The notes under the pieces are model-generated. The model saw only the letters and a list, made by a program, of their open reading frames with translations, did not search any database and was not told the origin of the DNA. Below are positions 16,268-24,959 of a stretch of DNA of 34,083 nucleotides, in pieces. Positions within the stretch are counted from its first letter, which is position 1, and every line of letters begins with the position of its first letter. The position numbers and the translations under genes were made by a program. The DNA is from Verrucomicrobiaceae bacterium. GTDB lineage: Bacteria; Verrucomicrobiota; Verrucomicrobiia; Verrucomicrobiales; DEV007. The stretch spans positions 1 to 34,083 of the forward strand of contig JAACDM010000405.1 of assembly GCA_009936795.1 (NCBI GenBank). The letters run 5' to 3'.

Positions 16268-16990
16268 ATGATTGCACGCACCTACCTCATCACAGGAGCC
16301 AGTAAAGGAATCGGCTACGCCACCGCGCGTCGTTTGGGCGATGCGGGGCACACGGTTATTGGCATGGCTCGGACAGAACCTGCAGGCCCCTTTCCAGGCC
16401 CATTCGTCACCGCTGATCTCGCTGATCGAAACGCCACAGCAGAGGCTCTACGTGGAATCACACAATCGCACGGCATTGATGGCATTCTCAACAACGTCGG
16501 GCTCGTCAACCCCGCTCCACTTGAAGAGATCACGTTAGAGCAACTCGACCAGGTGCTCGATCTCAATCTCCGCGTTGCCCTGCAAACAACTCAAGCAGCG
16601 CTCCCTCATATGAAACAACAACGATGGGGTCGCATCGTACAGACGTCCAGCCTCGTAACCGTGGGTGTGCCCTTCCGCACTAGCTATGCGGCAGCGAAGT
16701 CCGGGCTTATCAGTTTCACCAGAAGTTGGTCGTTAGAACTTGCACCCCACGCGATCACTGTCAATGCCGTTGCTCCTGGCCCAGTTGAGACAGAACTCTT
16801 CAACACCAACAACCCGCCCGGAAGTGAGAGTCGTCAGCGCTACATTGATAACATTCCCCTAAAAAGAACCGGCACCCCAGACGAGCTTGCCGCGATCAAT
16901 GCTTTTTTGTTAGGCGAAGACTCTGGGTTTATCACCGGCCAAACAATTTACGTCGACGGTGGTTCCAGCACCGGTCACGCGCCATTCTAA
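16268..16990 (+). CDS. Short-chain dehydrogenase/reductase (SDR family)
   Basis: This 240-aa cytoplasmic classical SDR has the cofactor motif TGASKGIG (residues 9-16), NNVG (75-78) in place of NNAG, the catalytic Ser at 128 (TSS), and YxxxK at Tyr140/Lys144. The C-terminal GFITGQTIYVDGGSS is characteristic of the FabG-like branch. It is an NAD(P)-dependent oxidoreductase; 3-oxoacyl-ACP reductase or a sugar/alcohol dehydrogenase are both possible, and the substrate cannot be read from sequence. No fatty-acid genes are adjacent. No Shine-Dalgarno is visible before ATG 16268. It stands alone between a featureless 260-bp gap and the decayed secretin-like locus. Confidence 0.92.
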   Translation: MIARTYLITGASKGIGYATARRLGDAGHTVIGMARTEPAGPFPGPFVTADLADRNATAEALRGITQSHGIDGILNNVGLVNPAPLEEITLEQLDQVLDLNLRVALQTTQAALPHMKQQRWGRIVQTSSLVTVGVPFRTSYAAAKSGLISFTRSWSLELAPHAITVNAVAPGPVETELFNTNNPPGSESRQRYIDNIPLKRTGTPDELAAINAFLLGEDSGFITGQTIYVDGGSSTGHAPF

Positions 16991-17053
16991 GTTGGCTTAA
17001 AGGATATCTTTTTCATTAATAATATAGCTGCAAAAGTAGCGCTTATGTAGCGG

Positions 17054-18535
17054 GTGATGCGCAGCTTATTACCGCTAGTCTATCAACTGACTTTGGCACA
17101 CGACCAAGATCCCTTTGCCAATAACGCCCAAGAGGTAAGAGCACCAAGAGATGCAGCGATCGATAATTCTATCGCAAAGAACATCGCGATTGTCGTAGAA
17201 TCCATTGCAGTCGATCACACCGACCTCCTGCGCGCATAGCGCAAGGAGGGCAAAGACACTCGACTTCGGGAAGACGTTGGCAAACTTGTACAGGCGGGCG
17301 CAGCAGAGCTCGTCGAAATCACCCAGTTGGTCACACGCAGCGGACAGCCGACTGCCGACGCTGTCCGAGTCAATGGTTGAGGTCATCTATCCGACGGAAT
17401 ATGATCTACCGGGGTTGCCTCAGAAAGTTCACGGAACAATCGAAGCCCCCTCTAAGATTATCACTCCCGCGACCCCAACCGCTTTTAAGACTCGGAGCAT
17501 TGGCTTTATTGTGAAGGCCGCGCCACAGCTTGGCCCAGGTGGTGAGATCATCAATATAGAGTTGGTTTCCGAGATGACTACACATGAACGGGACGCCGTG
17601 AGCGGCCAGCGAGAGGTGCAAATTACTTACCCTCTCTTTCACACCATGAAAGTGACGACAAACCTTCCAGCCCGCGCGGGGGAATACATGCTTGCTAGAG
17701 TCTATACGCCACCGGAGGAATCCCATGCGTTGAAGGAAGGGAAATCTCTAGACGACGAGAAGCGCATCATGGTCTTCGTCCGAGGACTCTTCTTACCATC
17801 GCCGACACCCGCTCGGTTAAGAACTCTTTGACAGAACAAGAACACTCCATCGAAACCATGGAACTCTCTTCTCTCGCAATTCCCGTTTGCACTACATGGC
17901 TCGGCTCAGCAGGGCTTTGTCACTGACAAGATGGCATAGGTCACATCGCCATTAAGCTAGAAGTCATTCAGGTGGATCGAAACCAAGCTGCCCAACTGTT
18001 GAGCCAACCGCGAAACGCCACCAACGCAACAGCCTTGCGCTATCAACTAGAGCCATTGATTGAGGCATCAAAAGCCAAAGTCATCAAAACCACGTAGGTC
18101 GTCACAAGATCGGGGCAGCGCGCAAAGACCGAGTCCATCCTCGAGAAAATTTATCGCGGCGAGTTTGATCCTGCGGAACTGCCACAACAAGTGACCGGAC
18201 CACTCACGGCTAATAATGTGATTTCCGCACCGGCCCATGGAACGACGTATGAAATGCGCCCAGAAAGCACCACTCTTCGAGTGGATCTCCAGATCGGCCT
18301 CGATGGCAATTCGATCGATCTAAGTCTGGATTCAGAGATCGCACATCAACTTAGGAACAGCACCGATGGCCAGGACGAAGCTCTAGTTAACCTGCCGGTA
18401 TTCAGAACGCAGCGAGGTCGGGCCAACATCCCGGTCATCAGTGGCGACTCCGCCTTGTTAGGCGTTCATTCCGTTCGTAATAAAACGGCACCAACATCGG
18501 TCTTTACAACTTGGTCTGCGTCACGGCTACGGTGA
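17054..18535 (+). pseudogene. Secretin-like protein with two homologous halves, heavily decayed
   Basis: Conceptual translation across frames gives two related modules. Module A reads ELVEITQLVTRSGQP, then after a +1 shift near 17375, EVIYPTEYDLPGLPQ, ITPATPTAFKTRSIGF and IMVFVRG. Module B reads KVIKTT-stop-VVTRSGQRAKTES, EKIYRGEFDPAELPQQV and TTYEMRPESTTLRVDLQIG. The pattern VxRSGQ.....IYPTEYxPPELP...TPTAFxTR is known from secretin-domain proteins of Verrucomicrobiota. Lesions are TAG at 17237, shifts near 17375 and 17805, TGA at 17924 and TAG at 18095. The C-terminal LGG-type secretin signature is not visible. No functional product is expected. Open 208-aa and 114-aa pieces here are fragments of it. 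Confidence 0.7.
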
Positions 18536-18627
18536 AGACCAACAGTAAGAAGTAGGACTCCCGTCTGACTTGCCACTAACCGGCGGGTCTTACCGGATTG
18601 CGACTGGTGTTCTTCCGGCATCTGTTC

Positions 18628-20391: not shown

Positions 20392-20639
20392 TTATACTGC
20401 GCGAGAGCGCACTCGAACCAAGCTGACCTCTCGGCGTAAGTCTCGCGATCGCGCTGTTGTTGTTAGGGCTGGTGGTCAGTTCTGCCACGATTGAACACAG
20501 GTCGCTTGGTCGACCCTGGGCCATCGGTTTCGTGAAGGCGGAATCGGCCCAGCCGGACCCAACTTACACGGGCTGGAGATGATCTTTGCATCCATTACTT
20601 TGCAAAACAACTACAACTTTGTGCCACAAAGCAGAACTG
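20392..20639 (+). other. Decayed coding sequence, identity uncertain
   Basis: No intact gene is present. One frame from about 20435 reads SLAIALLLLGLVVSSATIEH, like a membrane helix or signal peptide, and runs to TGA just after TYTGWR. The overlapping frame reads a short CH motif (GGQFCHD), TGA, then GGIGPAGPNLHGLE, which recalls the distal part of a small cytochrome c. Neither has a start codon. The reading as a remnant is inference. Confidence 0.25.
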
Positions 20640-21446
20640 ATGATTACCAATACTCATCTAACTCAACAGGAAATCGCCGAAGACGACTCTCGGATAACTT
20701 CAGTATTACCAGCCTCACCTCCAGCCGGAAAAGGCCCTTTGGAGAGCTTGGGCGGACTACTTTGACAACAATCTGGAGGAACCAGCTCTACCGTGGACAA
20801 GCCCCCAGCGCCTCGCCGAAGCCATGCGCGCTCCGTTGGCGGATTCACTCGCCATCTTTCAGTTGGGAGAATCCGGTGAAGGCAGCACGCAGCGCCGCTT
20901 TGCCCAACGGGTTGCCGACGATCCTCGTCTCGAAGGCTACCACGAGGATTTGTCCACGTTCCTTGAGGAAGAGAATCGCCACGCCAGTATACTAAAAGGC
21001 CTGGTAGAACGTCTCGACGGAAGTCTGTTAGAACAGCAATGGGCCCACGGAGTATTCAGGAAACTGCGCCGACTGATCAACTTAGAATTTGAGCTGCAAA
21101 TCCTCATGACAGCCGAATTCATCGCGGAGGCCTACTATGCTATCCTACGTGATCGCGCAGAGGATCCTGTCATTTCACAAGCCTATGAGCGCATCCTGCG
21201 AGATGCGGTGAAACATTTGCGCTTTCACGGCGATTTCTTTGCCACGCGCCAGCAGACCTGGCACCCGCTAACGCGGCTTCTCTGGGGTTGTCAGTGTCAG
21301 CCTATCTTCATGACCACAGCGTACGTCGTGTGGTTCGATCACCGCCCCTTTTCCAGGCACTAGGCGCCTCCTACGGAGAATCCAGCGGCCCGGGCAAGCA
21401 GTCCATCCGTGCCTTCAGGCGACGTATCACACGCCATCTTAACTAG
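20640..21446 (+). pseudogene. Ferritin-like helical-bundle protein with two frameshifts
   Basis: From ATG 20640 the frame begins MITNTHLTQQEIAEDDSR. After a one-base shift near 20693 it continues LQYYQPHLQPEKALWRAWAD and stays open through ESTQRR-type helices, FLEEENRHASILKGL, LEFELQILMTAEFIAEAYY and AVKHLRFHGDFFATR. A second one-base shift in the C4T4 run near 21345 restores LFQALGASYGESSG and RRRITRHLN to TAG 21444. The ExxRH and late HxxFH residues in long helices resemble the diiron ligands of ferritin-like or AurF-like four-helix bundles. Substrate and role are unknown. The central 179-aa piece (20824-21363) could be translated but lacks both native termini. Confidence 0.65.
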
Positions 21447-21571
21447 AGTCATTGTCCCGCGAAGAGGACACGGACGCGCCAGCGATTTCTCAATGTCCGG
21501 CGAGTTTCCGCACGCCATCCAGCTATCAGACCGTCCGCCAAGAGATCAGTCGCCATGCTTTGGCGGCCTAA
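21443..21571 (+). other. Short open tract resembling a protein C-terminus
   Basis: Overlapping the ferritin-like stop in another frame, a 42-codon tract ends SFRTPSSYQTVRQEISRHAL and AA, then TAA. It has no start codon and reads like a genuine C-terminal tail, perhaps of a former downstream gene. The remaining bases to 21714 hold nothing recognisable. Confidence 0.2.
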
Positions 21572-21744
21572 TGATAGAGCAGCATCGACATCGGTGCGTC
21601 CATCTTGCTTTCCGTTCTTTCTTAGTTTTAGGGCTGGCCAGATTACTCACCATTTTCCATCAGCAATTGACCGTCTCCGGTGTTAGATCGATGCTGAACC
21701 ACGCCTTTATTGCTATGAAACTTTAGACTACTCTCTTCTCCCTC

Positions 21745-23387: not shown

Positions 23388-24959
23388 CTAATCCCTAGCA
23401 GCGGCTTCCATTTGTTCTAACAAAGCCTTAATCGTCCTATCCATTTCCTTACCACGAGCATTCTTGGATCGAATCACACCTTTGGCATCGAGAATGTGCA
23501 CCGTGGGCCAACCGCTGACGTTCCACTTGGTCGGAATGGGTCCACTGGTATCACCACCGTCCCACCACGAGCGCCAGGAAAGGTTCTCGTCTTTAATTGC
23601 CTTCTTCACCACATCCTTGGGATCACTGTTGATACCGAGGAGTGCGAAAGGCTTGTTTTCTAAGCGCTTAACGAGCGACCGCTCGTGCGCGTACATGGCG
23701 CGGCAAGGGCCTCACCAATGCCCCCAGAAATCTAACATGACCACCTTTCCTCGATAGTCCGAGAGCTTAAAGACGACGCCGTCGATGTCTTCACCTTCAA
23801 TCTCTGGTGCCATCTGACCGATATTCAAATTACGCATCTCGAAGAGCTCGCCCACAATCATGGGCTTGATCGAACGATCGTTGAATGCATAGTCACCGAT
23901 CTTGGCTTCCGCTTCTTCAAGCAGGACCTCCTTCTTCTTCGACTCCTTGACACCGTTGGACAGACTGAAAGCGGCGAGAGCCTGAAATGTCTTGTTAGGA
24001 TGATTCGCTCGCACCTTCTCAAGCAAAGACGCCATACTTGGATCTGGTCGATAGCGATTGTAAATCATTAACATCGCTAAACTATTAGCCTCTGAAGCGT
24101 GATGATATTTCAAAAGCGCATCAGAGACAGCATCCGTGAACCCCTGATACTGAGACAGCCATGAGGCCGCATCAACCACACCAGGATGCTCTGGACTTTC
24201 CAAGATTAACTCAAAAAGGGCATTGTTAGTATCTATTGAACTCGGGTAAGTGAGGGCTGCCCGCGCTACTTCGTCTGCTGCGGCTCAGTACGCAGTGGTA
24301 AACTTCATCATTTTATCCTCGTAGCCCGCCATGAGATCTCGCATCCGACGCTCAAAGAGCGCCTCCGCGAGTTCATTCGCACTCATCCCGCCCAAAGCCA
24401 GGTCAAGAAACAGGCCGCTGCTGGCTGGTTCCGCCTGGTGAAGACTCACCGCGATTACGTTTTTTCCATCAACAAGTGTGTCTGAAGGAACTTCCATCAG
24501 GTGATCTGCCACATCAGCACTTCCGTTCTTCCCAGCGGCAAATGTCGTTTCTGTGATCGCCCCCTTCCCCATGCGTAGGCGCCCAATCTCTTTGCCATTA
24601 AGATACACAACGGCACCGTCATCTGCGGCGATCTTCACGGCTGCCTCTTTAATCAGGGCAAGATCGGCTATGTCGAAGCTCTTTCGGAAGTAGGTAACCG
24701 CGCGTTTCCTCTCCGCATCATCGCCAAATGATACCGTCGTCTTTAGCTCGGGCCCATCATCGGTCTCATAGCCAAGTGGGGCAATCCCAGTCTTCCAAGC
24801 ACTATCATCAAACTCGGTGCTCGTCCATTCCCCATCGGGAGACGTGCCTTGATCAAAGTATCTCCAATCAGAGGAGCCTTTGGAGATCAGAGGCACTTCA
24901 GCAAAGGCATTGAAAATAGAGACCCATCCCACGAGTAGGATGGCAGCGAGAGTTTTCAT
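23388..24959 (-). pseudogene. TlpA-like thioredoxin protein interrupted by two in-frame UGA codons (pseudogene or selenoprotein)
   Basis: From ATG 24959 one frame of 523 codons is open except for UGA at 24285-24287 and 23712-23714. It begins with a signal peptide (MKTLAAILLVGWVSIFNAFA). A beta-sandwich domain follows, with WRYFDQGTSPDGEW, FDDSAWKTG, LGYETDDG, AVVYLNGKEIGR and NVIAVSLHQAEPASSG. A helical middle leads to a C-terminal thioredoxin fold: APEIEGEDIDG, GKVVMLDFWGHW-UGA-GPCR, LLGINSD, WRSWWDGG and VSGWPTVHILDAKGVIR. Known relatives have Cys at the UGA of W-C-G-P-C. There are no frameshifts and no UAA/UAG. Either UGA at CxxC encodes selenocysteine, or the gene is recently dead. The first UGA (after KFTTAY) has no known Cys counterpart and favours decay. 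Confidence 0.8.
23664..23690 (-). promoter_or_regulatory. SECIS-like hairpin downstream of the CxxC UGA
   Basis: On the minus-strand RNA, ACGAGC (23686-23681) pairs perfectly with GCUCGU (23676-23671) around loop GGUC (23680-23677). Outer GCGC/GCGC pairing adds a lower stem with a UAA bulge. The loop begins 32 nt after the UGA, within the 16-37 nt range described for bacterial SECIS elements, and has G at its first loop positions. The stem overlaps codons for HERSLV, a motif usual in Cys relatives, so chance is a real alternative. Confidence 0.3.

Follow-up and report, generated by a model that had tools for sequence, protein, structure and literature searches.

A TlpA/ResA-like gene of a Verrucomicrobiaceae bacterium with a predicted selenocysteine codon, a conserved SECIS hairpin and a second in-frame UGA of a different kind

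The stretch of DNA analysed here (the window, 34,083 nt from a Verrucomicrobiaceae genome) carries on its minus strand a 523-codon frame, 24959-23388, with an ATG start at 24959 and a terminal TAG at 23390-23388. Re-reading of this frame bore out the description given by an earlier, sequence-only reading: there are two internal stops, each of them TGA, and no TAA, TAG or frameshift. Translated with TGA as a residue, the gene (23388..24959, minus strand) encodes an apparent signal peptide, an N-terminal domain, a helical region and a TlpA/ResA-like thioredoxin-fold domain, with Pfam matches to AhpC-TSA, Redoxin and Thioredoxin over cut-off. The first UGA is codon 225 (24285..24287, minus strand) and the second is codon 416 (23712..23714, minus strand), which occupies position 1 of W-x-G-P-C and so lies, as had been claimed, where relatives have the first Cys of W-C-G-P-C. 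The two UGAs of the gene need different explanations.

The thioredoxin-fold domain (AhpC/TSA, TlpA/ResA-like; residues 380-498, 23466..23822, minus strand) is matched over cut-off by PF00578 (AhpC-TSA, 8.9e-18), PF08534 (Redoxin) and PF13905 (Thioredoxin_8), and its nearest solved structures, 2lrn, 3gl3, 1jfu (TlpA) and 4nmu (ResA), are of the TlpA/ResA/DsbE type. The curated models for ResA (65.1 of 170 bits), TlpA (51.4 of 230) and DsbE (40.8 of 123) stayed below their cut-offs. These matches identify the protein as a thiol-disulfide oxidoreductase of the TlpA/ResA-like kind, a relative of ResA, TlpA and DsbE whose orthology to any of the three is unsupported by the cut-offs. Its N-terminus, MKTLAAILLVGWVSIFNAFAEV, looks by eye like a signal peptide (residues 1-22), and the oxidoreductase family is probably extracytoplasmic. 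The N-terminal domain that follows (about residues 22-200, 24360..24896, minus strand) has no Pfam match; a search of the host's own genome found it in many large proteins, the best paralogues being 43-45% identical and several lying within ORFs of more than 1000 aa. The window protein thus shares with TlpA, ResA and DsbE (CcmG) the thioredoxin fold, the W-C-x-x-C site and an apparent signal peptide, but differs from them in the predicted Sec in place of the first Cys, in an N-terminal helical region and in the further N-terminal domain, which it has in common with its same-genus orthologue L018.

Prx-like thiol:disulfide oxidoreductases of PF00578 with UxxC or UxxU motifs are a listed class of predicted selenoproteins (PMC13188914, PMC9312934), exemplified by WP_010940744.1, and the gene is placed in this class by its domain and motif definition (PMC13188914). 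It resembles the class in its PF00578 domain, in a Sec at the first position of UxxC and in the existence of UxxU variants, whereas its lineage has a fixed SECIS of its own, encoded in the codons for a HERSLV motif, and long N-terminal extensions. Two Sec-aware redoxin models of NCBIfam, NF041054 (WAxxUGC_long) and NF053656 (redoxin_TUGYCR), likewise describe thioredoxin-fold selenoproteins but match weakly (scores 30.8 of 300 and 19.8 of 100) and have a different Sec motif; none of the NCBIfam models reached its cut-off for the window protein.

Homologues of the gene were gathered by protein queries. Thirty-two of them, the window gene included, have UGA at the exact position of codon 416 (28 UxxC and 4 UxxU), a number that falls to 23 when sequences more than 80% identical in nucleotides are collapsed. 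They represent many genera and come from the genus, family, order and class of the host and from metagenome-assembled genomes of Planctomycetota; these sequences are related to each other, and the counts therefore overstate the number of independent observations. L018, a full-length orthologue from the same genus, shares the domain arrangement of the window gene. WCPPC and other Cys forms align against WUGPC to give a Cys/Sec pair at codon 416, and a tree built without the trait columns implies about six changes between Sec and Cys, of which no fewer than two to three fall on branches with good support. The nearest orthologue is about 45% identical, a distance at which synonymous sites would be saturated for dN/dS, and no shared synteny was found with the four nearest orthologues of the relatives set.

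Downstream of UGA-416 lies a candidate bacterial SECIS element (23671..23714, minus strand, counted from the UGA), in which a 25-nt spacer is followed by the stem ACGAGC, the loop GGUC and the stem GCUCGU. The 6-bp stem and the loop are real and spaced as the sequence-only reading had them, with 31 nt between UGA and loop and the first loop base at nt 32. The published model allows stems of 4-16 bp, loops of 3-9 nt and spacings of 16-37 nt (PMC13188914), and also requires a G within the first two loop bases (PMC13188914); the hairpin fits this model with its 6-bp stem, GGUC loop and 31 nt. Seen in a single sequence, this proves little, because about 12% of the gene's codon positions are followed by hairpins equally strong and the folding energy is unremarkable against shuffles (z -0.53). 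An Rfam scan of the gene region returned nothing relevant and no family matching the hairpin.

What raises the hairpin above chance is its conservation across the 32 UGA homologues. It is encoded by the HERSLV codons CAC GAG CGG TCG CTC GTT (23670..23687, minus strand), which are nearly invariant in nucleotides among the UGA forms. The loop and inner stem are fixed, with CGG, TCG and CTC each found in 32/32, although the same genes use CGG for 29% of Arg, TCG for 16% of Ser and CTC for 41% of Leu. The five SECIS codons have a normalised synonymous entropy of 0-0.21, against a mean of 0.73 for 31 conserved codons outside the SECIS (Mann-Whitney p 2e-4), and the complete 17-mer CACGAGCGGTCGCTCGT is retained in 29/32. 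The element does vary in a few members: L161 has a compensatory change from C-G to U-A that alters both sides of the stem and turns V into M in the protein, and in L098 a stem pair A-U has become G-U. Since the change from V to M keeps a base pair, the RNA appears to dictate the protein sequence here. In the first copy of L159 (G269:C70), also a UGA form, the codons read TCG CAG CGG TCG CTC GCG, so that the outer stem is broken with the loop and three inner pairs intact. The overlap with a conserved HERSL motif had been counted against a SECIS; this objection does not hold, as HERSL is lost in most Cys forms and the conservation in UGA forms is at the nucleotide level. HERSLV is thus conserved in nucleotides in the UGA forms because the RNA hairpin is conserved. 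Within the host genome a 16-mer of the hairpin occurs exactly only in this gene, near matches being no more frequent than in the reversed control, and a search for TGN followed by 25 nt and the 17-mer across 388 genomes from the phylum, a sample that apparently lacks the other UGA-form genomes, returned the window locus only and zero chance matches.

The host has the machinery that such an element would need. Its assembly (6.6 Mb, 739 contigs, 95% complete) contains selC, a tRNA-Sec of 68.5 bits above the Rfam cut-off that ARAGORN calls tRNA-SeC(tca), together with SelA (489 bits, cut-off 268), SelB (285 bits, cut-off 242) and SelD (267 bits, cut-off 125). A genome without selB or selC had been named as the finding that would overturn a selenoprotein, and all four genes are present above cut-off. 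Contamination is an unlikely source of SelB, since it is also over cut-off in three of three same-genus relatives. Across 142 related genomes SelB exceeds the cut-off in 49, among them all five that carry a UGA form (G000, G003, G009, G011, G012); for five genomes drawn at random, the chance that every one is among the 49 is about 0.004, a figure that ignores relatedness. The host's SelD is encoded inside a 793-aa ORF (L139:1393-3774, minus strand; G000:C453) with an N-terminal half resembling a flavoprotein of the NADH-dehydrogenase type, in the manner of a SelD fusion. Separately, positions 819-902 of the window (plus strand) match the tRNA-Sec model below threshold (40.2 bits, gathering score 47), which is probably another long-arm tRNA.

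Because 31 other members of the family have UGA at this place and a near-unvarying RNA hairpin after it, we read UGA-416 (WUGPC) as Sec rather than stop, and hold it almost certain that this codon genuinely specifies selenocysteine. The relatives aligned at this codon include forms with UGA rather than Cys in which the SECIS is conserved in nucleotides, and the Sec once put at one in three is now strongly supported by the sel genes, the family-wide UGA and the conserved SECIS. We envision a scenario in which the GGUC-loop hairpin 31 nt downstream would bind SelB carrying GTP and Sec-tRNA(UCA), and the ribosome would insert Sec at UGA-416, making it the attacking residue of the active site W-U-G-P-C. 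The Sec and the Cys of U-G-P-C could then form a selenenylsulfide-type redox centre, and the oxidoreductase would be exported.

Codon 225 presents a different picture. In 18 aligned homologues the position holds R (9), I (3), K (2), Q (2), A (1) or G (1), with C or U in 0/18, and Arg is found in most close relatives; this upholds the earlier remark that no Cys position accounts for the second UGA, which could be CGA to TGA. The Arg codons of eight checked relatives are CGA, CGC, CGG or CGT (CGC in L018), and since CGN codons stand at 225 in these eight, a single transition, CGA to TGA, would produce the stop. No hairpin of the bSECIS model was found downstream of UGA-225, and the strand after it folds worse than its shuffles. 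UGA-225 is best read as a CGA-to-TGA nonsense mutation with recent loss of function, a strain variant or a consensus error, and not as Sec. As a nonsense codon it should stop the assembled allele at residue 224, and the allele as assembled probably yields no full-length protein, which may make it a dead copy. Taking both codons together, we are highly confident, from the comparative evidence, that the gene is a genuine selenoprotein of the TlpA/ResA-like family with Sec at 416, its UGA-225 being nonsense and not Sec.

Three other accounts of the two UGAs were weighed. The UGA form could be real while the gene is now expressed in two pieces, one N-terminal and the other a Sec-Trx fragment whose translation re-initiates past codon 225, for which in-frame starts are available downstream (TTG at 24203, ATG at 24074 and others). 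However, the break would fall inside a helical region that stays linked to the Trx domain in relatives, the re-initiated fragment would be without a signal peptide, and the candidate starts have, by eye, no evident Shine-Dalgarno sequence, which makes this account very unlikely. We assign a slighter probability still to a protein in which both UGAs encode Sec, or UGA-225 is otherwise read through: both stops are UGA with no UAA or UAG, the machinery is present and UxxU members show that the lineage can carry two UGAs, but homologues have Arg and others and never Cys at 225, Arg is encoded there by CGC in L018, the orthologue from the same genus, and the hairpin and folding results just given for UGA-225 speak against it. 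Least probable, to the point of being scarcely credible, is a decaying Cys-type TlpA-like gene in which both UGAs are ordinary nonsense, an idea favoured by the Arg codon at the second UGA, by a neighbourhood made up in part of what look like gene remnants and by a lone in-frame UGA found at a Leu position elsewhere in the genome, but countered by the full Sec machinery, by the recurrence of the codon-416 UGA in 31 other loci with frames otherwise intact and a SECIS conserved in nucleotides, and by the fact that decay cannot yield the same codon in many lineages; for codon 416 it is ruled out by the family-wide conservation.

The elsewhere-located UGA lies in frame 1 of L059 (G000:C316), a large surface-type protein of the host genome, where it is the only interruption in a frame of about 1170 codons. 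Around the gene itself, the description of a neighbourhood full of pseudogenes is right for two remnant-like stretches and wrong for the ORFs of PGI, GlnD, ThiC, SDR, PQQ and large surface proteins, which are intact. One stretch, 16990-18600, has a broken frame at 17199-18535 and secretin-like text; the other, 20500-21730, has a broken frame at 20579-21363 and ferritin-like text. These two remnants (17199-18535 and 20579-21363) were likely the basis of that description. An Amuc_1102-family pilus-like protein is also among the profile matches.

The Cys forms and the UxxU members add a history to the selenoprotein reading. The hairpin is absent from most Cys homologues, and the close planctomycete WCPPC group has a GHEQ-type sequence instead. 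Three Cys forms retain a relic of the SECIS, matching it at 17/17 (L094), 15/17 (L101) and 14/17 (L119) bases, the GGUC loop having become GCAA in L119; in sequence terms these relics are pointing to switches from Sec to Cys. The four UxxU paralogues, L097 (G011:C259), L098 (G003:C639), L099 (G009:C325) and L128 (G250:C37), have two UGAs three codons (9 nt) apart at the CxxC, followed by one hairpin whose loop lies 31 and 22 nt downstream of the two. They form a sister clade with support of 100/100 and one Cys form (L101) inside. L097 is a fusion protein: a long N-terminal part, PQQ beta-propeller-like in its sequence, precedes the domain. We favor, with some reservation, a model in which a lineage spanning the host's class and Planctomycetota has a near-immutable HERSLV-coded SECIS, the RNA dictating the protein, and in which a sister UxxU branch uses one SECIS to recode two UGAs.

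At least 32 genes of the family, this one included, have UGA in the active site. Standard annotation would label such a gene as split or a pseudogene, and the host belongs to a group of genomes in which selenoproteins are little described. In the open-access literature we found selenoproteins reported in a planctomycete genome and nothing dedicated to this gene family; nor did we find there a description of a lineage with a fixed HERSLV-coded SECIS, of Sec/Cys switches with relics or of a UxxU sister clade. The family offers a clean natural experiment: the synonymous sites of its SECIS are fixed, Sec/Cys switches have left relics, and on the UxxU branch a single hairpin may serve two UGAs. Because of this natural variation, the UxxU branch included, the tolerance of SelB to the spacing between UGA and SECIS can be tested by reporter. 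The host genome contains a further UGA-containing thioredoxin-like protein, L100 from base 538 (G000:C557), with the motif NWGINUGPC and a different, model-compatible hairpin, CATCTG-GTT-CAGATG, whose loop lies 30 nt downstream.
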